This document shows, piece by piece, positions 1 to 17,945 of a stretch of 22,912 nt of DNA. The notes under the pieces are model-generated. The model was not told the DNA's origin, did no database searches, and was given only the letters and a program-made list of their open reading frames with translations. A program made the position numbers and the translations under genes. Source of the DNA: a virus; IMG/VR virus record IMGVR_UViG_3300046524_000426, positions 1-22,912 of that record, one strand, 5' to 3'. The number at the start of each line of letters is the position of its first letter. Position 1 is the first letter of the stretch.

Positions 1-1907
1 CTTGCTGGTGGTATGGGATTCGCTCCGGGCAAGACCGGCTGCTCGGCACACTCGCGGTATTTACGGAGGCCGGACGCGTGCCCGATCAAGGCGAAATGGA
101 GATCCTTGGCCTGTGCGTCCACACGGTCAGCATCGCGGTTGAACGACTTCACATCGAACGCAAGGCACGCGCAAGCGAGGACCAGCTTGAATATCAGTCG
201 AATTACGACACCCTGACGGGACTTGCCAACCGTAATTTGCTTTGCGACAGGACAAGTCAGACGATGGCGCGGGCCGTGAGCCGGGGCGAACAGGCCTGGC
301 TTGTCTGTATCGATCTCGACCGCTTCGCCCTGGTTAACGAAACGCTGGGCCACGAAGCCGGCGACCTGGTCTTGCAAGAGACAGCGGCCCGCTTGAGGAT
401 GGCACTGGGGCCGAATGACACGGCCGCGCGCACCGGTGGCGATGAATTTGTGCTGGTGCTCGCCGATACACCCGACGAGCACGCTGCGATCAATACAGTC
501 CAGCGCATCATGGCCGCCCTGGGCGATCCGATCAAGGTTGGCGAGCACGAGCATTTCCTGAGCTGCACGTCCGGGTTATCGGTATTTCCGGCTGACGGCG
601 ACACGGCGAACGCCTTGATCAAGAATGCGCACATTGCAATGCAGCGCGCCAAGGAAGCGGGTGGTGGCGAGTTGCAGTTCTATACGGCGTCGATGAAAGC
701 GCGCGCGATGGAACGCCTGCGGATCGAGGGCGACCTGCGGCATGCCGTCCAGCGGGACGAATTGCTGTTGCATTACCAGCCACAAGTCGACGTGCGCACC
801 GGTCGGATTGTTGGCGTGGAAGCCCTGCTGCGGTGGGCACATCCCGAACTCGGCATGATGTCGCCCGACCGGTTCATTGACCTGGCGGAACAAAGCGGGC
901 TGATCGTCCCGATTGGCACGTGGGTATTGCGGACCGCGTGCACGGACGCCAAGCGTTGGCATGATGCCGGTTGGGAAGGCCTGCGCGTGGGCGTCAATCT
1001 GTCGGGCAAGCAGTTCTATCAGCCGGATCTGATCGAGGTTGTGACAGGGGTCCTGGCGGAATCAGGGCTCGCGGCACGCTACCTGGACATCGAGCTGACG
1101 GAAGGCCTGGTCATGACCGACATCGACCATGCACTCGCCACCATGAATACGCTCAAGGGGCTCGGCGTACAGCTATCGCTGGACGACTTCGGCACCGGCT
1201 ACTCCAGCCTGTCGTACCTGAAGCGCTTCCCGATCGATGTGCTGAAGATCGACAAGTCGTTCGTCAGGGACATTACCACCGATCCGGACGCGGCGGCGAT
1301 CGCGCGGTCCATCATTTCGCTTGCCCAAAGCCTGCAATTGCAAGTCATCGCAGAAGGCGTGGAAACCCAGGAGCAGCTGAGCTATCTGACGACCTACCGT
1401 TGCGACCAGATCCAGGGTTACTATTTCAGCCGTCCGGTACCGGCTGCGGCATTCGAGCAGTTGCTGAGCGAGGAGCGGGCGCTGCCTGTGGCGTGTCCTG
1501 ACGAACAGGTGCGGACGTTGCTGCTCGTTGATGACGACCCTGGCGTCAGCGCGGCATTGCGCCGGCTTCTGCGCCGCCAGGGCTATCGGGTACTGTACGC
1601 GGCAAGCGGAGATGAAGGTTTGAGCCTGCTTGCCTTGAACGACGTCCAGGTCGTCGTCTCCGACCAGCGCATGCCCGGCATGACGGGCATCGAATTCCTG
1701 TCGCGCGTCAAGCAGATTCACCCGCAGATCATCCGGATCATGTTGTCGGGCTACACGGCGGTCGACGCGATCATCGAAGCGACCAATAGCGGCGCCGTAT
1801 TCCGGTTCCACACGAAGCCGTGGGACGACGATGCCTTGTGCGCAAGTATCGCCGACGCATTCCGTTATCACTGGTTGATGCGCAATGCGGAAATTGCGCA
1901 GACGTGA
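1..1907 (+). CDS. GAF-GGDEF-EAL-REC cyclic-di-GMP regulator (5' end cut by window edge)
   Basis: The reading frame is open from the first bases, so the start lies upstream; ATG-like codons near 78 are internal. The first ~45 residues (CWWYGI.. to IAVER) look like the end of a GAF sensor domain. A GGDEF diguanylate cyclase domain follows, with an intact GGDEF signature at 435-449; the inhibitory RxxD site is degenerate (GPND). The EAL phosphodiesterase domain has EALLRW (from 819), ELTE, DDFGTGYSS, KIDKSF and AEGVET, so its active site looks complete. A C-terminal receiver domain carries the acidic DDD cluster (~1530), the phospho-acceptor Asp at 1662-1664 in SDQRMPGM, and the conserved TKPW lysine. 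The protein should make and/or degrade c-di-GMP under GAF and phosphorelay control. A receiver at the C-terminus rather than the N-terminus is less usual. This is chromosomal flank, not prophage. Confidence 0.93.
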   Translation, partial: CWWYGIRSGQDRLLGTLAVFTEAGRVPDQGEMEILGLCVHTVSIAVERLHIERKARASEDQLEYQSNYDTLTGLANRNLLCDRTSQTMARAVSRGEQAWLVCIDLDRFALVNETLGHEAGDLVLQETAARLRMALGPNDTAARTGGDEFVLVLADTPDEHAAINTVQRIMAALGDPIKVGEHEHFLSCTSGLSVFPADGDTANALIKNAHIAMQRAKEAGGGELQFYTASMKARAMERLRIEGDLRHAVQRDELLLHYQPQVDVRTGRIVGVEALLRWAHPELGMMSPDRFIDLAEQSGLIVPIGTWVLRTACTDAKRWHDAGWEGLRVGVNLSGKQFYQPDLIEVVTGVLAESGLAARYLDIELTEGLVMTDIDHALATMNTLKGLGVQLSLDDFGTGYSSLSYLKRFPIDVLKIDKSFVRDITTDPDAAAIARSIISLAQSLQLQVIAEGVETQEQLSYLTTYRCDQIQGYYFSRPVPAAAFEQLLSEERALPVACPDEQVRTLLLVDDDPGVSAALRRLLRRQGYRVLYAASGDEGLSLLALNDVQVVVSDQRMPGMTGIEFLSRVKQIHPQIIRIMLSGYTAVDAIIEATNSGAVFRFHTKPWDDDALCASIADAFRYHWLMRNAEIAQT

Positions 1908-4408: not shown

Positions 4409-6685
4409 TCACGCGGTCTTCACGATCACGACGGCGCGGCCGTCGGCCTCGATCGCAATGACCTTGCCGACGGCGCGCATGTAGTTCGCCAGCGTCATGT
4501 CCGCTTCGTTCATGGGCACGCCCTTGATGCCGTCGCCGTCCTGCACCGGCACGATGTACTGGCCCGGCGTCGCACCCATGACGTTGACGGGCACGCGGCC
4601 GGCGAACGCGATGCGGTCGACCTTCGCGCGCTCCGCCTCGTAATCGGTGTCGAACTTCTCGTTCGCCTTCTGCCACGCTTCCATCGCCGCCGCGTGGTCT
4701 TTGCGTGCCTGCTCGACCTGGGCCTTGTACGCTGCGCGGTCAGCCGCTTCCTGTTCCTGCACGGCATGCCAGTTGGCGAACGCCTGCTCGAAGTTCTCCG
4801 TGCGCGTGGCATCGACGTCTGGGATACCCAGTTCCTCCGGCGGCATCGGCGGGCGGCCAGCGGTCACGCCTGCGTAATCCGGCTCGACATACACGGGCTG
4901 CTCAGGACGCGCGCCCAGATCGAGCGACCACGTGTCCCCGCCGACGTACGACGGGTTGGTCGACTTGATCGCGAAGGTCAGCGAATCGGCCCAGCGGTCA
5001 GTGATTTCGGCGCTGGAATTGATGCCGATGATCTGGCCCTTGGCGATGACACCGCAGCCGTCGGCCTTGCGCATGTACTCGGCATAGTCGGCGCCTCCAG
5101 TGTTGACGGTGCCGGCCACGTTGATCGAGCGGCCATTCCCCGAGTTCATCGCCAGGGTGAGCGCGGCGGCCGCGCCATTGAGCGTGCCGCTCGTGGCGTG
5201 CTGGAAGTAGCCGATCACGCTGCCGGCGCCACGAAGCGTAAGAATCACCGCTCCCTGAACGGTGCCGGCCTTGTCGATGATGTGGTTCGCGCCGGACGAC
5301 GCGCCGATGAAGCAGTTGCCGGTCGTGTCCATCCCGAAGCCACTCACGCCGCTTGGCGTGTTCACGCCCCACTGCGTCGCCGTGTAGCGCGTGGACCAGC
5401 CAAACCGGTTTTCCACCTTCCCGACCGGATCCTCGATGACGTAGTTCTTCGCGCCGGCATCCGATACCGACGCGGTGCAGTTGTCATTGTGGTTCGCGAT
5501 CGCGTGGAACAGCTGGTACGTGTTGTCGACGCTCTGCGTCTCGATCTGCGCCTGGAACAGCTCCAGGTAGTTGTGACCGATCTTCTCGCCCACGACGTTC
5601 GGGCCCAGCGTGATGCCGACGCCGACCTGCGCGCCGGCCGCACCGCTGGAGCTCTGCAGCAGGTTTGCAAAGTACGAGTTTGCACCGCCCTTGTTCACCT
5701 TAATGGGGCGGTTCGACAGGATGTTATTCCGGTGGAAGCGGCAGATCTGCAGACCCTGCGTGGTGGTTTCGGTAATGCCGTTGGCGAAGGCGAAGCCAGC
5801 ATCTCCGATGGTGTTATTGTCGATCGTGTGCGCGTATGCACCTGGTACGAACGCGCTGGTGACCGGATCGATGTCGGTCAGCAGGATCCCAATGCCGTTG
5901 TTGTTCGAGCCCGACAGCAGGTAGCAGTCGTGGATGTGCGCGCGGCCGGCATAGGCCCTGATCGGGACCTGCGAGGCCGTCGACGGGCGGAAGATGATGT
6001 TCGACACCTCGCACTGCTGGTGGGCGATGCGGATCATGTCGAACGTGGCCAGGTCGGGCGCGGTGATGTACGTGCCGTACCGTGAGGCGCCGCGAATGCG
6101 CATGCCCTTGCCGGTGGTGACGATGGGCTGCGAGATCCGATAGTTCCCCGGCGGCAGGATCACCTCGCCGGCAAACGTCGTGAAGCAGGCCATGGCGTTC
6201 TGCAGCGCCGTGGTGACGTCGGTGGGCACCCCGTTGCGCACGTTCGCGATTTGGGTCGAGGTCATGAAGTCGAAGGCGCTCACGGAATCGCGCCCGCGAT
6301 CGAGCAGGGTGCGCACCTGGGCGCCAGCACCCGAGGCATTGAAGCCGACGAGATTCGCGCCGGTCGCCGCGGCCAGCTGCGGCTGAATGTTCAGCAGCCC
6401 GGCCGGGTCGGTGCTGTAGTTGTCGACCGGGTAGCCGCTGACCTGCTGGCCCGCGGCGGTCTTCAGGTCGACCTTGTAGGAGCCGTCCCAGAAGATCGCG
6501 GCTTCGCCTTTCGCGTCCAGCGTGATCGGCCACTGGTGCGGGACCGTGCCGGCTGCGTCCTGATACACGGCTTTCGGCGTCGTCGTGCCGGCGGCATAGG
6601 TGTACAGCTTGCACCCGGCCGCCGGCGTGCCGTCGTTGTTGTAGTAGCGCTGCCGGCCTTCCGGCATGAGGGTGGTGGTGGGCAT
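4409..6685 (-). CDS. Tailspike: virion-binding N-terminus, beta-helix, Peptidase_G2-like C-terminus
   Basis: This 758-residue protein should be the receptor-binding and probably glycan-degrading spike. Residues ~10-90 form the small beta module common at the head-binding end of phage tail fibres (NDGTPAAGCKLYTY.. WDGSYKVDL..). A linker with SAFDFMTSTQIANVRNG leads into a pectin-lyase-type parallel beta-helix (~150-500; EVILPPGNYRIS is a typical first rung). From ~528, GADYAEYM opens a Peptidase_G2-like domain, an autoproteolytic intramolecular chaperone of trimeric spikes. It is interrupted by a long charged coiled coil (~625-690) and resumes at VDRIAFAGRVPVNVMGA to the end. Two neighbouring structural genes (6695-7018 and 7039-7821) may form its attachment site. 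Start: AAGGA seven bases before the ATG. Substrate unknown. Confidence 0.87.
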   Translation of the reverse strand: MPTTTLMPEGRQRYYNNDGTPAAGCKLYTYAAGTTTPKAVYQDAAGTVPHQWPITLDAKGEAAIFWDGSYKVDLKTAAGQQVSGYPVDNYSTDPAGLLNIQPQLAAATGANLVGFNASGAGAQVRTLLDRGRDSVSAFDFMTSTQIANVRNGVPTDVTTALQNAMACFTTFAGEVILPPGNYRISQPIVTTGKGMRIRGASRYGTYITAPDLATFDMIRIAHQQCEVSNIIFRPSTASQVPIRAYAGRAHIHDCYLLSGSNNNGIGILLTDIDPVTSAFVPGAYAHTIDNNTIGDAGFAFANGITETTTQGLQICRFHRNNILSNRPIKVNKGGANSYFANLLQSSSGAAGAQVGVGITLGPNVVGEKIGHNYLELFQAQIETQSVDNTYQLFHAIANHNDNCTASVSDAGAKNYVIEDPVGKVENRFGWSTRYTATQWGVNTPSGVSGFGMDTTGNCFIGASSGANHIIDKAGTVQGAVILTLRGAGSVIGYFQHATSGTLNGAAAALTLAMNSGNGRSINVAGTVNTGGADYAEYMRKADGCGVIAKGQIIGINSSAEITDRWADSLTFAIKSTNPSYVGGDTWSLDLGARPEQPVYVEPDYAGVTAGRPPMPPEELGIPDVDATRTENFEQAFANWHAVQEQEAADRAAYKAQVEQARKDHAAAMEAWQKANEKFDTDYEAERAKVDRIAFAGRVPVNVMGATPGQYIVPVQDGDGIKGVPMNEADMTLANYMRAVGKVIAIEADGRAVVIVKTA

Positions 6686-7038: not shown

Positions 7039-7821
7039 TTATGCGGTGGTGCTGTCGGTGATCAGTCCCAGCGATGCCAGCGCGGTGAGCGCCGAGGCCA
7101 GCCCGGCGTTGGCACCGCGCGATCCCGTAACGGTCGGCTTCGCTACCGGCGTCGCGGCAAAGAAGCCGATTCCCGTGCCGTTGACGGAGATCCGCGTCGT
7201 GTTCGTCGCGCGCAGGGAAATCGTGGACGCGGCAACGGTGAGCGGGACGTAGCCGGCCGCCGCCCGGTCATAGGCCAGCACACCGGTCGTGCCCGCTCCG
7301 AAAGCCGCGCCGTCCGAGTCGAACTCGAGCCCGGCCGCGCCGTTGTTGGAGACGACAAACCGGTACGTGGGTGATCCCGTGCCAGCGCTGAGAGTCGTAA
7401 ACCTGCCGCTGTTGCGCGCGGTTGCGCCGATGGACGTGCCGTTGATCGTGCCGCCGGTGATAGCCACGGAATTCGCGTTCTGCTTGGCCATCGTGCCCAG
7501 CGAGCCGAACGCGGCCGAATAGTCCGGGATCAGGGCAATTTCCTTTCGGATGTCGTCCAAGGCGCTGCGGTCGATGGGCTGCGTCCACGTAAGCGCCGCT
7601 GCGACGTCCTGCGACCGCGTGTCGGATGCGGCAGCCGCGTCGATGCCGAAGGCGAATAGCGCGCCCAGATCGTCCGACGACATCCCGGTAGCGCCGCCGA
7701 TCCGGGCCAGCACGGCGGTCAGCGCACGCGAAAATTCCGGCGTCATCAGCACCGATCCGTCGGGTTGCACATTGCCGATCGCCACTCGCGCCGGAAACAA
7801 ACTCAGGGTGTTCTTGCTCAT
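7039..7821 (-). CDS. Fibre-like phage tail protein
   Basis: This is a 260-residue protein. The N-terminal ~100 residues are predicted helical with acidic patches. The middle carries the fibre-type motif NSVAITGGTINGTSIG followed by GRFTTLSA, typical of trimeric beta-prism or beta-helix repeats of phage tail fibres. The C-terminus (TGSRGANAGLASALTALASLGLITD) is a short helical tail often seen on such proteins. Its ATG overlaps the stop of the gp10-like gene (ATGA). The likely role is a head, neck or tail fibre, or an adaptor between the hub and the tailspike. No enzymatic motif is visible. Confidence 0.72.
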   Translation of the reverse strand: MSKNTLSLFPARVAIGNVQPDGSVLMTPEFSRALTAVLARIGGATGMSSDDLGALFAFGIDAAAASDTRSQDVAAALTWTQPIDRSALDDIRKEIALIPDYSAAFGSLGTMAKQNANSVAITGGTINGTSIGATARNSGRFTTLSAGTGSPTYRFVVSNNGAAGLEFDSDGAAFGAGTTGVLAYDRAAAGYVPLTVAASTISLRATNTTRISVNGTGIGFFAATPVAKPTVTGSRGANAGLASALTALASLGLITDSTTA

Positions 7822-9248
7822 CGCATCAGGCCCTCCGCGTCCACCGCGGCGCCGAGGATGACGCGCTTCACCGGATCGGAAATCGAGATCTCGAATACGC
7901 GATCGCGGCTGCTGCCCAGGCGGCGGAGGCGTGCGCGTGCCTTGAACTCGGCGATACGGCCCATCGACATCGTGCGCAACGTGCTCCAGGTGTGCCCGCC
8001 GTCGTCCGACCAGCGAACCATCATCAGCGGGTCGCTACCCTGGCCGGTGAGCAGGCCGACGCCCGCTTCGATGTCGACCTGCAGGCCGTGGTAGCGGATG
8101 CGCCGGTAATCGCCGTCGGCCACATGGGGCGCCGAGCGCAGCGCGAGCAGCGGTTTGCCGTCGTCGTCGTAGCAGTCGAGATCGAGCGCGTACAGGTTGC
8201 CGTTCTCCCAGTCGCCGACCACGTGCTGGCCGCCCCAGAACATGTGGCAGTTGGCACGGTGCCGGTTCAGCTGGCCGTCGCTCGGGTCCAGCCATGCGCG
8301 TTCGTGCCAGAGCTGGGCCTTCACGCCGTAGACCCATGTCGCGTTCGCGCTGGGGAAGCTGAGCTGGTAGAACGTCTCCCCCTCCTGGGTATAGGCGAAG
8401 GCCCGGGCGTCCGAGATGTCGCCGTAGCTCTGGATCGCGCGCTCGATGCCGTCGTGCGACACGCGCACGGGTGAATAGCCGTTCAGCCGCCAGACGGTGC
8501 CCTGTCCGGTTTTGTCTTCGCCCAGCCAGAACACGCTGTTGTCCAGGTCGGCCACGGAGTGGGGCGCGCAGCAGCCCTGCTCGATGAGCGCGTTGCCGTC
8601 GCGCGCGTACGGAAAGTCGGCTTCGCCGGTGTAGCTCCACACCTCTGTCACGGTGCGTTTGAACAGCAGCAGCTGGCCGTGGTTGACGATGTGCGAGACG
8701 ATCGGCTCCGCGTTGCTATCTGCCGCGGCGAAGTCGAGCGCGTCGAACGTCACCGAGCCGTCGGCCGCCGATATGTAGAACTGGAACGTGCCCGGCCGGT
8801 CCAGGATGAAGGCGTTGTTGGCGTAGTCGACGCGCCGCGCGCCGTAGAACGCCTCGTCATCGATGCGCACCAGCGCGTTCGTACCCAAGTTCAGCTGGTA
8901 GCCGTTCGGGCCCGTCCCGAGCAGGGCGGTGTTGCCGTTGTCCTTGATCGAGACGGGGGCGTCGAGTGCGTCGATCGTGCCCACCAGGGTTGGCGTGAAG
9001 TCGGCGGCCACGCGGTAGACGTTGGCGCCCGCCACGGCGATAGCGTCGCCGACCGACGGGCGGTACAGCGCGCGGATGCCGCCGCCGATGAGCGTCACCA
9101 GCCGGCGCAGGCCGGGCGTGCCGAACAGCGCGCGCACGGACTTGGCGTTACCAGACTCGCCCAGCACCGGATACAGATTGATGCAGCGCTGGGCGTCAAG
9201 GTTCAGCGAGCGCGACTGGTACGCGCCGCCCACGAATGGAATCTGCAT
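7818..9248 (-). CDS. P22 gp10-like packaged-DNA stabilisation protein (tail hub)
   Basis: This 476-residue protein is close to the length of P22 gp10 (472). The N-terminus MQIPFVGGAYQSRSLNLDAQRCINLYP is the hallmark of this family, followed by repeated beta-propeller-like strands. The C-terminus includes WSDDGGHTWS, GRIAEFKARARLRRLGSSRDRVFEISISDPV. gp10 forms the hub of the tail machine, closing the portal channel after packaging and connecting to needle and spikes. The gene follows a terminator-like hairpin by only ~13 bases and has no clear Shine-Dalgarno sequence, so it may depend on read-through or an unusual initiation. Its 3' end overlaps the next gene by ATGA. Confidence 0.88.
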   Translation of the reverse strand: MQIPFVGGAYQSRSLNLDAQRCINLYPVLGESGNAKSVRALFGTPGLRRLVTLIGGGIRALYRPSVGDAIAVAGANVYRVAADFTPTLVGTIDALDAPVSIKDNGNTALLGTGPNGYQLNLGTNALVRIDDEAFYGARRVDYANNAFILDRPGTFQFYISAADGSVTFDALDFAAADSNAEPIVSHIVNHGQLLLFKRTVTEVWSYTGEADFPYARDGNALIEQGCCAPHSVADLDNSVFWLGEDKTGQGTVWRLNGYSPVRVSHDGIERAIQSYGDISDARAFAYTQEGETFYQLSFPSANATWVYGVKAQLWHERAWLDPSDGQLNRHRANCHMFWGGQHVVGDWENGNLYALDLDCYDDDGKPLLALRSAPHVADGDYRRIRYHGLQVDIEAGVGLLTGQGSDPLMMVRWSDDGGHTWSTLRTMSMGRIAEFKARARLRRLGSSRDRVFEISISDPVKRVILGAAVDAEGLMR

Positions 9249-9260
9249 AGGGTTTGGTCG

Positions 9261-9284
9261 TAAAAAAGCCCGCGAGTGCGGGCT
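9261..9284 (-). terminator. Rho-independent terminator after the ejection genes
   Basis: On the - strand, AGCCCGC-ACTC-GCGGGCT (9267-9284) forms a perfect 7-bp stem followed by TTTTTTA. It lies between the last ejection gene and the gp10-like gene, in the middle of the late block. Full termination here would silence tail, spike and lysis genes, so leakiness or antitermination is implied. Confidence 0.75.
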
Positions 9285-9286
9285 GG

Positions 9287-9295
9287 TGGTATGCT
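9287..9295 (+). promoter_or_regulatory. Extended -10 promoter of antisense small gene
   Basis: TGGTATGCT is a TGn-TATGCT extended -10, which can work without a -35. The predicted start of transcription (~9302) lies just before the AGGAGG at 9309-9314 that serves the TTG start at 9319. The promoter faces into the ejection-protein gene, opposite to the late operon. Confidence 0.5.
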
Positions 9296-9318
9296 GCGAA
9301 AATTAGTCAGGAGGAAAC

Positions 9319-9447
9319 TTGAGTACTTACGTCACCTTCAAGCTTTGGAAGCTGGCCATGTTCTTCATCGGCTCGATAATTTACGGGTTCGTCAGCGCTC
9401 GGAAGCGACGGCGGAGTTCAGCGCAGCGCCCCTCAGGAGGGGGTTAG
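9319..9447 (+). CDS. Small membrane protein antisense to the ejection genes (candidate exclusion protein)
   Basis: This 42-residue ORF has a TTG start placed four bases after a full AGGAGG ribosome-binding site (9309-9314). The peptide (MSTYVTFKLWKLAMFF..) has one transmembrane segment (~residues 12-27, LAMFFIGSIIYGFVSA) and then a strongly basic tail (RKRRRSS), implying N-out/C-in topology by the positive-inside rule. It has its own extended -10 promoter and is convergent with, and overlaps by 56 bp, the gene at 9392-10840. In P22 the superinfection-exclusion gene sieA lies in the same relative place and opposite orientation. The sequence is far shorter than SieA, so only position and membrane character support that role. 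A frame starting at the ATG at 9291 is less likely because it lacks a ribosome-binding site. Confidence 0.6.
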   Translation: MSTYVTFKLWKLAMFFIGSIIYGFVSARKRRRSSAQRPSGGG

Positions 9448-10840
9448 CCAGCCCCCCTTCGAGCGCCGGCGCTGCACCGCCCGCGACTGCGGCCGCAGGT
9501 CCGTTCACCATCCGCGCTACCAGGGACTTGAATGCGGCGCTCCGGTCGGCGAGGAATGCCACCATCGCAGCAGGATTTTTCGCAAGCGTGGTGAGGCCCA
9601 GCGGATTCTTGTTCAGCTCCATCAGCGCGCGGCGTTCGGACACCTTGAGGGTCGTGATCAGCTTCGCTTCCTCGGCGTTCAAGCCGGCCACTTCCGGTAC
9701 TGCGTTCGAGATTTCTTCCTTCAGGCCGCGTGCGAGACCTTTCTGCGCCTCCGTCTCTGCTCCCCCCAACTGCCCGTATTTTTTCGCCAGCGTCCGGTAG
9801 GTTCCCTGCTTCAACTCCTGCGCGGCCTGGACGGGCAAATCGGCGCCTGAATAAAGCGGATGCGCCAGGAAGTCGTCGCCAACGCGATCGATAGCGGCCA
9901 AGTCCGCCGTCGGGCTGACCTGGTTGCCGAAGGCCGTCTTCACGTCCGCCAGACGCTGCAGCACGCTCGACTTCGGAATGGTCGCAGTCGAGTTAGCGAT
10001 CTTGTCTGATACCTGAATATTCAGGTCGTCGATCAAGCCACGCAGTTTCTCGACGCCGGCCTTGGTCGGGTTGATGCCGTAGTCGAGCAACGTCCGTACG
10101 GCGACACCCGCATCGCCGTTGGCCAGCTGCTTGAGCGTCGGCTTGATCGCGCTCTGCATCAGGCTTTCTGCCCCGCCGCGCGCGAGCTGCTCAAGCTTAT
10201 TGCCGATGGCGCCGCCGACTTTTGATATCCCGGGCAAAGCAGCTCCAACCACACCGCCCGCCGCCGCATCCTCCGGATTGATCAGCGCCGTCGACGCCGC
10301 GCCCGTGGTTGCGCCGCCGGTGGCGCGCATCGCCAGATCGGCCAGCCGCGACGTCGAGCTGCCCGTGCGCATGCCGCCGGTGGCGACCGAGTTCGCCAGC
10401 GTTTGTAGGGTCGAGCCCGACATGCCAGCGCGGGCCGCCAGCGGCGCGGCAGCGCGCACGCCACCGGCCAGCACGCTACCCATGCCGGCCGTGCCGGCTA
10501 CCTCGCCGCCGAGCTTGCCCGCCTTGTACGCGAGAGAGTCCGGGTCGGAGCCCACCAGATAGGTCAGGCCCGAGTCGATGTCGGCGCGCCGCTTCCGGTT
10601 CGATTCGAGGGAGACGCCTTTCCCGTCCAAGGCGTCGCTGATCATGTCGACCGGGGCCAGGATTGTGGCGCCGATCGACCCCGCGCCGCGCAGTGCGCCG
10701 GCGGCCAGGTTGACGGCACCCTTGCCGATTGACGCCAAAATGCCCGGATCTTCCTGTTCATCAGCATGCACGGGCTTTGCAGTGCTCAGGTCAAAGCCGG
10801 TCGACTGGACAGGCTTCGCGGTTGCGAGATCGAAAGGCAT
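9392..10840 (-). CDS. Internal ejection protein with FDLxTAKPV repeats (P22 gp20/gp16 type)
   Basis: This is a 482-residue protein. The N-terminus carries two copies of FDL(A/S)TAKPV within the first 24 residues, a short motif found in ejection-type proteins of several podoviruses. Glycine- and alanine-rich, membrane-compatible stretches follow (INLAAGAL.., VAGTAGMGSVLAGGVRAAAPLAARAG; TGGATTGAAS; AAGGVVGAALPG). The second half is helical and charged. Such proteins are packed inside the capsid and form the conduit across the envelope during DNA ejection. The length resembles P22 gp20 (471). TGATG coupling to the preceding gene and the position after two other ejection genes support the role. 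The last 56 bp overlap a + strand membrane-protein ORF. Confidence 0.8.
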   Translation of the reverse strand: MPFDLATAKPVQSTGFDLSTAKPVHADEQEDPGILASIGKGAVNLAAGALRGAGSIGATILAPVDMISDALDGKGVSLESNRKRRADIDSGLTYLVGSDPDSLAYKAGKLGGEVAGTAGMGSVLAGGVRAAAPLAARAGMSGSTLQTLANSVATGGMRTGSSTSRLADLAMRATGGATTGAASTALINPEDAAAGGVVGAALPGISKVGGAIGNKLEQLARGGAESLMQSAIKPTLKQLANGDAGVAVRTLLDYGINPTKAGVEKLRGLIDDLNIQVSDKIANSTATIPKSSVLQRLADVKTAFGNQVSPTADLAAIDRVGDDFLAHPLYSGADLPVQAAQELKQGTYRTLAKKYGQLGGAETEAQKGLARGLKEEISNAVPEVAGLNAEEAKLITTLKVSERRALMELNKNPLGLTTLAKNPAAMVAFLADRSAAFKSLVARMVNGPAAAVAGGAAPALEGGLANPLLRGAALNSAVASER

Positions 10841-12315
10841 CAGTGCACATCCTCATGTTGTTTGCCATCTGGACTGACGTAGGCGCGGTTGCCGTTGGCG
10901 TCCATCATCAACGTCCAGCCCTTGGCGTTCTTGGTCGGTGCCGCCGGAGGCGTGGCGCTCTTCTCTTTCTTGTAGTTCGGCAGCGTACTGTCCGGCAGGC
11001 CGGCTGCGCGGCGCTGCTCCATCAGGTTGTCCGCTTGGGCGCCCATCACCATCCGGTAGTGCTGGATCGCACCCTTGAGCTGCGCTGGCGAGCTGGCCGT
11101 GCTGAACGTTTTTGCAGCTTCCTCGCGCTCGGTCATCGAACCGCCGCCGGCAACGATCGCTTTCACGACCTCCTGGCCGACGATGTTCTTGATGGCGTCG
11201 AAGTTGGTCGGCGCGGGGTTGCCGGTCGCTGTCAGGTACTTGTTTTTGGCCTTGTTGATGAGCTGCGTACTGCCGTTGCCGAGCGCGTCGACCAGCTCGC
11301 CCAGTTGATCCAGGTGATCGTTGGCGGTCGACACCGAACGCAGCGCGTTGCCCAGTGAGCCGGACGCGAAGTCCGCGGCCGCCTTCTTCTTCGCCGCGAC
11401 GGTCGTGTAATCGTAGTCCGGGTTGATTTCCATGACCCGTGCTAGCACCCGTTGGTTCTTCGGATTCATCATGGCTAGGCCAGTCGGAGGCGGGAGCTGC
11501 CCCGACGCGATTGCCTTCGCAGTCGTTTCGATATCGCCTCCGACAGTGCCGTCGGGGTTGAGCCCAGCAACAGCATAGTCCTTCTTGCGGTTGGCGACCC
11601 CCTCGGCCGTGATTCGCTGGTTGGTGGCGATATTGTCCGGCGACTGCGTGTTCTTCACGCTGCTCACGGTCTTTACGACGCCCGTGACCGGGTCCACGCT
11701 GATGGTGTCGGTGGTGCCGCCCAGGTTGCGCGTGTCGATCTTCGGCAACTGGTCCTTGGCGCTCAGCGCGGCCCGGTACGCCAGGTCAGCGAGCTGCGCC
11801 ACGTTGTTTGGATTCGCATCGACCTTGGCGATGTCCTGCGCGGCGTGCTCCGGCGTGTACACCCCCTGCTGCTGCAGCCAATTGATGGCAGCCTTGGCGT
11901 TTTCGACCGTCGGATTCGCCTTGACGAAGCCGAAGGCCTGACCCGCCAAATCCAGTTGCTTGCCAGCGGTCTCAATCTTCTTGGCCTGCGCGTCCGCCTG
12001 AGCCTTCTCGGCGTCGGCTTTCACCTTCGTGCGGCTCTGCAACGTGCCTTCCAGCTTATCGGCTTCGTCGAAGTACGCGTTATTGCGCAGGCTGGCGGTT
12101 CGTTGCTCGTCGGTCGTATCGGCGCTCCAACCTTTGGCGAGGTCGCGCAGGCCTCGGCCACGCGCGATTTGCTGCTCCTTCTCTCCATACATCAGGTCCG
12201 CCAGCCGGCTCTGGTTCTGGGCCTGCTGGATCTGCTGGACCTGCATGTACTGCTCGAGCGGGTTGGCCACCTGGATCGGCTTCACGCTCAGGGCGATGTT
12301 CGGATCGATTGCCAT
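10840..12315 (-). CDS. Internal ejection protein (P22 gp16/gp20 type)
   Basis: This is a 491-residue, mostly helical, Gln/Ala-rich protein starting MAIDPNIALSVKPIQVANPL.. The ATG shares one base with the upstream stop (TGATG); an in-frame ATG four codons earlier (MGQLM) has no better ribosome-binding site. The N-terminal QMQVQQIQQAQNQSRLADL stretch and the long K/E/A helix near residues 90-125 are typical of internal virion proteins released with the DNA. The C-terminus (GWTLMMDANGNRAYVSPDGKQ) is a small beta hairpin. No lytic transglycosylase or peptidase motif was found. The role is inferred from organisation and neighbours. Confidence 0.75.
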   Translation of the reverse strand: MAIDPNIALSVKPIQVANPLEQYMQVQQIQQAQNQSRLADLMYGEKEQQIARGRGLRDLAKGWSADTTDEQRTASLRNNAYFDEADKLEGTLQSRTKVKADAEKAQADAQAKKIETAGKQLDLAGQAFGFVKANPTVENAKAAINWLQQQGVYTPEHAAQDIAKVDANPNNVAQLADLAYRAALSAKDQLPKIDTRNLGGTTDTISVDPVTGVVKTVSSVKNTQSPDNIATNQRITAEGVANRKKDYAVAGLNPDGTVGGDIETTAKAIASGQLPPPTGLAMMNPKNQRVLARVMEINPDYDYTTVAAKKKAAADFASGSLGNALRSVSTANDHLDQLGELVDALGNGSTQLINKAKNKYLTATGNPAPTNFDAIKNIVGQEVVKAIVAGGGSMTEREEAAKTFSTASSPAQLKGAIQHYRMVMGAQADNLMEQRRAAGLPDSTLPNYKKEKSATPPAAPTKNAKGWTLMMDANGNRAYVSPDGKQHEDVH

Positions 12316-13028
12316 CAGTTGTCCCATCCATTCTGTGAAATAAACGACCCGAGCGGGTCAGAGCTGCTATTCGCGGTGCTCAGCTGTCGCTGACGCGACA
12401 AGGTGGACAGCAGGTTCTGGTTCTGGTTGTAATTCAGGTACTGGCTCAGGCCGTTGCCGACTGCGTTTGCAGTGCCGACGTACCCGGACGCGCGCGCATT
12501 GCCCGCACTGAGCAGGTTCTGGCTGGTGTTGTTCGACGCGTTCGCGCCGGCGCTGGCGATCGTGCCGTACGCGTTCTGGCCAGCCTGACCGATCTGGTTG
12601 GTGGCGGTCTGCCCGAGGCCCGCGAGCGACGCAAGGCGGTTCCAGGAAGCGCCGTACTCGTTCGATGCCGTGTCCTGGTTGAAACGCGCGAGCGCCTTCA
12701 GGGTCGCGCCGGAATACAGGCCACCTCGTCCCGACGCCGCGCGCTGAATGGCCTTCTCGCCTTCGCTCACGCGGAACTGGTAGCCCGGATCGCTCGGGAG
12801 ATCGACGCCGGACGCCAGTTTCGCGAGCGCGTTCTTCCCGGCGTCGAGCCACGGTTGCTGGTCGGCGCGCTGCCGCGCCAGCAGGTCGAGCTGATCCTGG
12901 CGCGTCTGGTCGTATTCCCGCGCGGTTTCGCTATTCGCCGAGCTGATCGCGCCGGACTGCTTGTTGGCGGCACTGTTTGATGCCACCGCCCCGAGCGCCG
13001 CGCCGCCTACGATTGCTGCTGCTACCAT
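12315..13028 (-). CDS. Small internal ejection protein (P22 gp7 type)
   Basis: This is a 237-residue protein, close in length to P22 gp7 (229). It opens with a glycine-zipper hydrophobic segment (MVAAAIVGGAALGAVASN, residues 1-18) that could insert into the host membrane. Next come a heptad-like Gln/Arg helix, the family-typical PGYQFRVSEGEKAIQRAASGRGG and LARFNQDTASNEYG. An Asn/Gly/Ser-rich C-terminal half follows. It is first of the three ejection genes, with a GGGGGA ribosome-binding site seven bases before the ATG. The role is to help deliver DNA across the cell envelope. Confidence 0.78.
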   Translation of the reverse strand: MVAAAIVGGAALGAVASNSAANKQSGAISSANSETAREYDQTRQDQLDLLARQRADQQPWLDAGKNALAKLASGVDLPSDPGYQFRVSEGEKAIQRAASGRGGLYSGATLKALARFNQDTASNEYGASWNRLASLAGLGQTATNQIGQAGQNAYGTIASAGANASNNTSQNLLSAGNARASGYVGTANAVGNGLSQYLNYNQNQNLLSTLSRQRQLSTANSSSDPLGSFISQNGWDN

Positions 13029-13031
13029 AAT

Positions 13032-13487
13032 TTATTCCCCCAGCCATTTGCTGTAGTAGGTTTCGACGGGCGCAGCTCCGATCCGCTTGAACAGCGCGCT
13101 CGCATCCGCGTGGATCTTCGAACCCATGAACCAGCGCTGAACGCCGCGGCGCCGCAACTCCCCTTCGACGAAGCGAAACATGCGCACGCCGGCGCTGCCC
13201 GCGCGCTTGTCAGTACGTACGTAGAAGATGTCCATCGTGCAGGTCAGGCACGTTTCGTAGTGCAGGCCCGGCGCGATGAAGCCGATGAAGTAGCCGACCA
13301 GCTCGCCTGCGTCGCGCAGCGTGACGAACAGCAGGCCACCGGCGCGCTCGCGCTCGATGTACACGTGGTATTGCGGCTGCAGCGGCACCTTGTCCTGGTT
13401 CAGCGCCAGTTCGCGGTAGTGAAGCGGCAGCAGCGCCTGCAGCTCGGCCAGGCGTTCTTCGAACGATTCGACGTGGCAGGTGATCAT
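13032..13487 (-). CDS. Phage GNAT-family N-acetyltransferase
   Basis: This 151-residue protein has the GNAT fold order: an N-terminal helix-strand part, central strands (GLLFVTLRDAGELVGYFIGFI), the strand CTMDIFYV, and the acetyl-CoA pyrophosphate-binding loop RTDKRAGSAG (residues 91-100). A helix and the C-terminal ALFKRIGAAPVETYYSKWLG follow. It should transfer acetyl from acetyl-CoA to an amine; the substrate is unknown. Its ATG overlaps the stop of the oxygenase gene (ATGA), and both sit among virion genes, so they are expressed late. A virion protein or a host factor could be the target. The family is recurrent in phages of proteobacteria. Confidence 0.85.
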   Translation of the reverse strand: MITCHVESFEERLAELQALLPLHYRELALNQDKVPLQPQYHVYIERERAGGLLFVTLRDAGELVGYFIGFIAPGLHYETCLTCTMDIFYVRTDKRAGSAGVRMFRFVEGELRRRGVQRWFMGSKIHADASALFKRIGAAPVETYYSKWLGE

Positions 13488-17366: not shown

Positions 17367-17945
17367 TTAGACCCCTGCTACTTGGTTGGAATATTGGTGA
17401 CGGTTGATCGTCACCAGCCATTTGCACGACGCGCCAATCGCGTTGTCGTCGCGCGCGACGGGCGACATCAGGTGCAGGTCGAGCGTCGCGGTCGTCGCCT
17501 CGGTGGCGTTGTCGAGCTGCGTGCCGGAGCAGCCAGTGACCGTGCTGCCGGCGCCGACCACGAAGTTGATGTTCAGGCCGATGTCGTTGGCGGTCAGCGG
17601 CGTGCCGGTGGCGCCTTCCTGGATCTCGAAGACCAGGTCCGGGTTGTCGGCCACGTAGACCTCGCGCACGGTGCTGCCGACGCGGTAGCGCAGGCTGTCC
17701 TGCGTGTCGGGCTTTACGCCGACCACGACGCCGACGATCACGTCGCCGGTCGCGGCGCGTGCGACGTCCTGCAGCACGCGGCCGTTGAGGGTCTGGCCGG
17801 TGCCGGCCAGCTTGACGAAGTCGCCGACGAACAACGCGGTTGCGTCGCCGGCGGGGACCGAGTACACGCGGAACGAGCCGTTGTACGCGGCGCCGTTGCG
17901 GTGGGCGACCGGCGTGGCGCCGGCCGGGGTATCAGCATTTGCCAT
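17367..17945 (-). CDS. Probable head decoration/cement protein
   Basis: This is a 192-residue beta-rich protein ending three bases before the capsid ATG. The N-terminus (PAGATPVAHRNGAAYNGSFRVYSVPAGDATALFVGDFVKLAGTG) and GDVIVGVVVGVKPDT resemble capsid-stabilising beta-barrel proteins coded beside major capsid genes. Cys residues (TVTGCSGTQ; ASCKWLV) are few, and there is no signal peptide. The role is inferred from position and fold character; another minor head role is possible. A hairpin precedes the gene (17968-17987), and TGGAG eight bases upstream serves as the ribosome-binding site. Confidence 0.68.
   Translation of the reverse strand: MANADTPAGATPVAHRNGAAYNGSFRVYSVPAGDATALFVGDFVKLAGTGQTLNGRVLQDVARAATGDVIVGVVVGVKPDTQDSLRYRVGSTVREVYVADNPDLVFEIQEGATGTPLTANDIGLNINFVVGAGSTVTGCSGTQLDNATEATTATLDLHLMSPVARDDNAIGASCKWLVTINRHQYSNQVAGV

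Follow-up and report, generated by a model that had tools for sequence, protein, structure and literature searches.

The virus contig examined here (IMG/VR record IMGVR_UViG_3300046524_000426, positions 1-22,912, analyzed whole and hereafter called the window, 22.9 kb) carries, opposite its late operon and at the position that sieA holds in P22, a 42-codon gene for a small protein with one hydrophobic segment. On comparative evidence this mini-ORF is a real gene under purifying selection. Related phages keep its control elements and exchange its coding part for unrelated short membrane proteins, and the version carried follows the type of the adjacent ejection gene. Both the exchange and its link to ejection-gene type are new here and absent from the initial annotation of this DNA. 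On balance, and if only just, we favor the reading that the mini-protein would be a single-pass inner-membrane superinfection-exclusion factor of the P22 SieA kind, co-inherited with the ejection protein.

The mini-gene and its setting in the late operon

The window holds, on the minus strand, the late genes of a P22-type short-tailed phage, in the order portal and coat genes, a phrog_598 ejection gene, genes at the positions of P22 20 and 16, and the Hc3/gp10 gene. The contig is a fragment, on which no integrase was found. The feature, studied in the piece 9261-9447, occupies the 9248-9392 gap (hereafter the slot) and beyond, between Hc3 and the last ejection gene.

7818-9248, minus: head closure Hc3 / P22 gp10-type stabilization protein, the next late gene past the slot (phrog_578, E 9e-122)
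9267-9284, minus (read 9284-9267): intrinsic terminator of the late transcript, a 7-pair hairpin followed by a T-run, between the last ejection gene and Hc3 (scan)
9284-9314, plus: 31-nt "socket" from promoter to ribosome-binding site (RBS), common to relatives bearing different coding parts (cargo)
9287-9295, plus: extended −10 element TGGTATGCT (TGRTATGCT or TGGTAAGCT in relatives), predicted +1 at ~9302
9309-9314, plus: Shine-Dalgarno AGGAGG, 4 nt upstream of the TTG, kept in relatives with four cargo types
9319-9447, plus: mini-gene, TTG start, 42 codons, TAG stop at 9445-9447, peptide MSTYVTFKLWKLAMFFIGSIIYGFVSARKRRRSSAQRPSGGG (from the ORF list, relatives, selection, and hydrophobicity and charge)
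9392-10840, minus: last ejection gene (P22 gene 16 position), 482 aa (order after the phrog_598 gene; clustering of its 3′ part tracks cargo type)
10840-12327, minus: second ejection gene (P22 gene 20 position; synteny only, family searches without a match)
12315-13028, minus: DNA ejection protein at a P22 gp7-like position (phrog_598 DNA ejection, E 1.4e-31)

Naming the last ejection gene after P22 gene 16 rests on its position: the protein matched nothing in Pfam or PHROG, phmmer returned no match to P22 gp16, and an AlphaFold model built from 14 sequences had a mean pLDDT of 55, too low for a fold search. Directly upstream of the ejection genes, at 13032-13487, lies a gene for an acetyltransferase-like protein (phrog_1249), and a large plus-strand ORF at the contig end (78-1907), opposite the late genes, belongs to phrog_11823 (unknown function, E 7e-168).

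The initial annotation had described an extended −10, a full AGGAGG, and a TTG-started 42-codon ORF with one membrane segment and a basic tail, and each of these was located again; by hydrophobicity and charge, the single hydrophobic segment spans approximately residues 12-26 and the tail reads KRRRR. Its further description of an ORF that begins beyond a terminator of the opposing strand and runs across the end of the last ejection gene also holds, with the final 56 nt of the mini-gene overlapping the 3′ end of that gene tail to tail. Among ORFs of 20-70 aa in the window, only the mini-gene combines a full AGGAGG with a membrane segment. A scan for a standard −35/−10 pair at the site returned none, and, lacking a −35 box, the promoter would belong to the extended −10 type. 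The 31-nt socket string occurs once in the window and not at all in shuffled sequence, and a degenerate form of it matches 13 stretches of IMG/VR viral contigs. The terminator hairpin is likewise retained in relatives, with differing arm sequences. Since it sits within the late operon ahead of Hc3, late transcription either has to pass through it or has to start again beyond it, which suggests antitermination in this phage.

Conservation and selection on the mini-gene

Relatives (numbered L) were contigs collected via the two neighboring proteins and then searched by tblastn with the mini-protein. Homologues occupy the corresponding site in L003 (83% identical), L012, L008, L016, and L005, with weaker ones in others, and a family profile search added members outside its build set (L030, L058, L059, L006, L072, L082, L032, and L033), all of them antisense across the ejection-gene end. 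The initial annotation had proposed such a tBLASTn comparison as a check on the frame and RBS, and both proved to be conserved: the family comprises ~20 relatives with an identical antisense position and the frame kept. In types A and C of the slot protein (described below), the start codon lies 61-94 nt beyond the ejection stop in every member.

Over codons outside the ejection-gene overlap, pooled pN/pS was 0.43 in frame versus 0.92 and 1.33 in the other frames. Diversity at third codon positions exceeded expectation (p = 0.0019), and translated identity was 0.58 compared with 0.44 in column-shuffled controls, a value as high being reached in 0/5000 shuffles. A TTG start, 42 codons, and high G+C DNA rich in spurious ORFs are what a chance or artefactual ORF would look like, but same-place homologues in ~20 contigs and two Massilia-group genomes, selection on the frame, and a conserved promoter and RBS contradict that reading, which we reject as having next to no probability.

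Searches of INPHARED phages by tblastn with the 42-mer and with a close homologue, and by blastn with the mini-gene region, gave no match. A search across the genus Massilia gave one clear case beyond the prophage L083 of Massilia sp. YIM B02769, in a second Massilia-group genome in which the mini-gene lies on a 5.8 Mb contig and is likewise preceded by a hairpin; the mini-gene is thus present in prophages of two Massilia-group genomes. Conserved opposite-strand genes of < 60 codons form a class that escapes annotation, including in the isolated Rhodoferax phage P26218.

An immI-type slot at the position of sieA

In the P22 record, gene 16 is followed by sieA, orf59a, and mnt on the opposite strand and then by arc and ant on the late strand. 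The same immI order is seen in five relatives (L005, L008, L016, L082, and the Massilia prophage L083), in which the last ejection gene is followed by the antisense mini-gene, an antisense Arc/Mnt-type repressor gene, and late-strand antirepressor genes. The likeness to the sieA position noted in the initial annotation is borne out by these relatives: within an immI-type region, the mini-gene lies antisense, flanked by the last ejection gene and the late gene that follows it. In all five, the ATG of the mini-gene overlaps the stop of the Arc/Mnt-type gene (ATGA-type). This neighbor encodes a ribbon-helix-helix protein (PF03869) in those scanned and is Arc-like by PHROG; in L082 it was identified by phmmer to P22 Mnt and Arc. 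In L012 the overlapping antisense gene upstream of the mini-gene is an HTH repressor gene instead. The overlap with a Mnt-like or HTH repressor gene predicts that the mini-gene would be expressed alongside a gene of the lysogenic state. On the late strand opposite, antirepressor genes (BRO, Rha, or AntA) are present, with small Arc-like genes in most of these relatives. A terminator, a promoter, and the mini-gene are all that the window and its close relatives contain here, and the window thus looks like it holds a reduced immI; a reduced immI in a P22 relative has a parallel in phage L (PMC8022706).

Position does not extend to homology. Judged by sequence, length, and helix number, all of which fail, the mini-protein is not a member of the SieA family: a phmmer search with P22 SieA over every ORF of every locus fetched gave no match at E 0.1, the peptide has one helix rather than three (or more), and the SieA motif FxRYPxEAxxFNK (PMC10883804) is absent from its 42 residues. 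Two other genes were considered as counterparts and rejected, P22 orf59a as a charged, soluble-looking 59-mer and phage L orf62 as a gene of the late strand.

Exchange of cargo together with the last ejection gene

Many relatives whose Hc3 proteins are 77-96% identical share the same terminator, extended −10, and GTCAGGAG RBS, and encode beneath them unrelated short membrane proteins of 26-54 residues.

Type B slot protein: MHYDPIQLGALLAYVINAWLAARRNR
Type C slot proteins: MSDYLIFKIYK... and MSDFIAFKLWK...
Type D slot protein: MPDFLLALIIKPVV...

Types A and C are distantly related. The switch point is the start codon: L065 and L064 agree at 60/60 nt before it and 29/60 after it, and L058 and L060 at 59/60 and 33/60.

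Ejection types were defined from the C-terminal 200 residues of the neighboring ejection protein, clustered across contigs with enough sequence. The five socket/slot types map one to one onto these C-terminal clusters in 29/29 contigs, which are not phylogenetically independent, and type C splits in two on the slot-protein and ejection-protein sides alike. Between type C and type A phages, the N-terminal half of the ejection protein is shared and the C-terminal half is not, which indicates that it is the 3′ part of the ejection gene that goes with the cargo. A linkage of cargo to Hc3 was rejected, since types A, B, and C all occur among contigs whose Hc3 is 94-96% identical. These comparisons are strong evidence that the slot protein and the last ejection gene form a stable pair. 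Because the contigs are not independent and the overlap keeps the genes together, the pairing supports a stable pair and not a physical interaction; it could follow from the physical overlap of the genes alone.

Occurrence with and without an integrase

Integrase genes were found in 8/8 near-complete relatives first examined and in 7/11 further records, or 15/19 of the slot-gene-bearing records searched. A group of relatives (L036-L054) has a related (type-A) ejection gene and lacks the mini-gene. An integrase was present in 0/7 records examined from this group versus 9/11 among those with the mini-gene (Fisher p = 0.002, with no correction for phylogeny).

L014 and two phage genomes encode a type-E protein, related to type D, from an antisense ORF that again runs over the 3′ end of the last ejection gene.

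17751-17909, plus, Rhodoferax phage P26218 (NC_029061): type-E ORF, conserved, unannotated small membrane protein
29111-29269, plus, MW202557 (circular environmental phage genome): type-E ORF, conserved, unannotated small membrane protein

Between these two genomes, type-E pN/pS was 0.30 in frame versus 1.48 and 2.31 in the other frames, and neither ORF has a clear Shine-Dalgarno ahead of it. No integrase was found in either genome, and the isolated phage P26218 is described as lytic (PMC4657236). Because phages that lack an integrase, one of them lytic, carry type E in the slot, a lysogen-only role for the slot genes is not secure.

Proposed function and its alternatives

In the reading that we favor, the small single-pass protein would be placed in the inner membrane of the lysogen or the infected cell, its basic tail probably on the cytoplasmic side (inside) according to the positive-inside rule. 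Expression would run opposite to the late operon, either from the extended −10 promoter of the mini-gene itself or, in relatives, downstream of the Mnt-type repressor gene, and the protein may then act on the ejection proteins that arrive from related phages, so that these fail to form or open the DNA conduit. The standard terminator-promoter-RBS socket would be kept as the coding part is exchanged together with the last ejection gene, each phage thereby bearing a slot version co-inherited with its own ejection protein. Position, membrane character, and the tie to the 3′ part of the ejection gene together make the mini-protein best read as a minimal SieA-like factor, and in P22 the mutations that escape SieA map to the C-terminal regions of gp16 and gp20 (PMC10883804). 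As a counterpoint, searches of PHROGs, Pfam, NCBIfam, and PADLOC and with phmmer linked the mini-protein to neither SieA nor another known exclusion protein. If the proposal is correct, few known superinfection-exclusion proteins would be as small, and the mini-protein would perform, by an independent route, the task of the three-helix SieA.

Three other functions were weighed against exclusion. The initial annotation had offered, as an alternative, that antisense transcription regulates the late operon; the plus-strand transcript would then pair with the 3′ end of the ejection mRNA and the ORF would be incidental. Such a role would suit the 56-nt overlap, the dedicated promoter, and the terminator on the other strand, and P22 immI does contain a genuine antisense RNA, sar, but purifying selection is specific to the reading frame outside the overlap, unrelated coding cargo, each with an RBS and a membrane helix, has been placed beneath one promoter, and the overlap shrinks to approximately zero in type B and to 4 nt in L072. 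The fold of the transcript is no better than that of shuffles (z = +0.8) and Rfam gave no match, findings that together with the frame-specific selection led us to reject a structured antisense RNA; antisense regulation in general is less likely than exclusion, and we consider it very improbable.

The slot protein could instead be membrane active or serve lysogenic conversion without being aimed at ejection, for example as a type I toxin-like or abortive-infection peptide or as a modifier of the host membrane. Its size, single helix, and charged tail recall TisB or Hok in general form, its placement is antisense, and type C has a weak PHROG match to a moron membrane protein (E 0.33, not significant). 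However, no toxin or defense family was matched and no antitoxin RNA is evident, the type of slot protein co-segregates with the ejection gene and not with host or immunity genes, and the position is that of sieA, all of which make this reading unlikely. The same strict co-segregation, and the occurrence in lytic phages, would fit a partner or self-protection protein that either restrains the membrane-active ejection protein of the same phage inside the cell that makes it or assists that protein during entry or assembly. Against such a partner, late transcription would oppose expression of a gene antisense to the late operon, the gene is coupled in relatives to a repressor gene of the lysogenic state, and type-A ejection genes work without a mini-gene in L036-L054; we regard it as rather improbable.

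Several known systems come close to the mini-gene. Like P22 SieA, the slot proteins are membrane proteins encoded antisense directly after the last ejection gene and beside mnt/arc/ant, exist in several dissimilar sequence types, and are missing from some related phages; P22 SieA, in contrast, has 162-164 aa and three helices and its gene stands 23 nt clear of gene 16, whereas the mini-protein has 42 aa and one helix and its gene overlaps the ejection gene. Lambdoid morons are short genes placed among late genes close to a terminator, each with a promoter of its own; the mini-gene differs from them in lying on the opposite strand, in overlapping the end of its neighbor, and in having a coding part that changes while the promoter stays fixed. 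Type I toxins such as Hok, TisB, and Ldr are tiny single-helix proteins with charged ends, from which the mini-protein is set apart by the lack of a Pfam family match or a visible antitoxin RNA and by its co-segregation with the ejection gene. Eight family members searched against Pfam at E 1 hit no toxin family, six slot proteins matched no PADLOC model at E 1, and PHROGs, Pfam, NCBIfam, and PADLOC assigned the slot proteins to no significant family. The small exclusion membrane proteins HK97 gp15 and those of Tuc2009 and TP-J34 act at DNA entry, as proposed for the mini-protein, and escape from HK97 gp15 and TP-J34 maps to tail or tape-measure genes (reviewed in PMC10883804); these proteins belong to long-tailed phages, and the slot proteins matched no Pfam, NCBIfam, or PADLOC family.

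A further step, which we hold to be possible while leaning against it, is that the slot would harbor interchangeable minimal exclusion proteins (26-54 aa), each cognate to its own ejection protein, with the overlap locking the pair, recombination at the socket swapping the unit, and exclusion specificity groups set by the ejection protein. The SieA proteins of P22 and HS1 are 24% identical and show no difference in specificity (PMC10883804), so that matching is not needed in the known system, and the authors of that study found it hard to see how SieA and the ejection proteins go on interacting given the extent to which each varies (PMC10883804). In the present phages, ejection genes and slot proteins come in matched pairs under a single promoter, which makes this question of specificity directly testable.

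Other contents of the slot

Upstream of Hc3 in L017-L020, the terminator is retained, the late gene appears to abut it, and there is no antisense gene, showing that the slot can be empty. In L006, a homing endonuclease-like gene (positions 1062-1727, minus strand; NUMOD/HNH-like by eye) lies antisense between Hc3 and the start of the mini-gene. In L031, an antisense gene at approximately 5435-5791, directly upstream of the mini-gene, encodes a predicted lipoprotein of 118 residues with an LLLLAGC lipobox, a second candidate for an exclusion gene of the slot.
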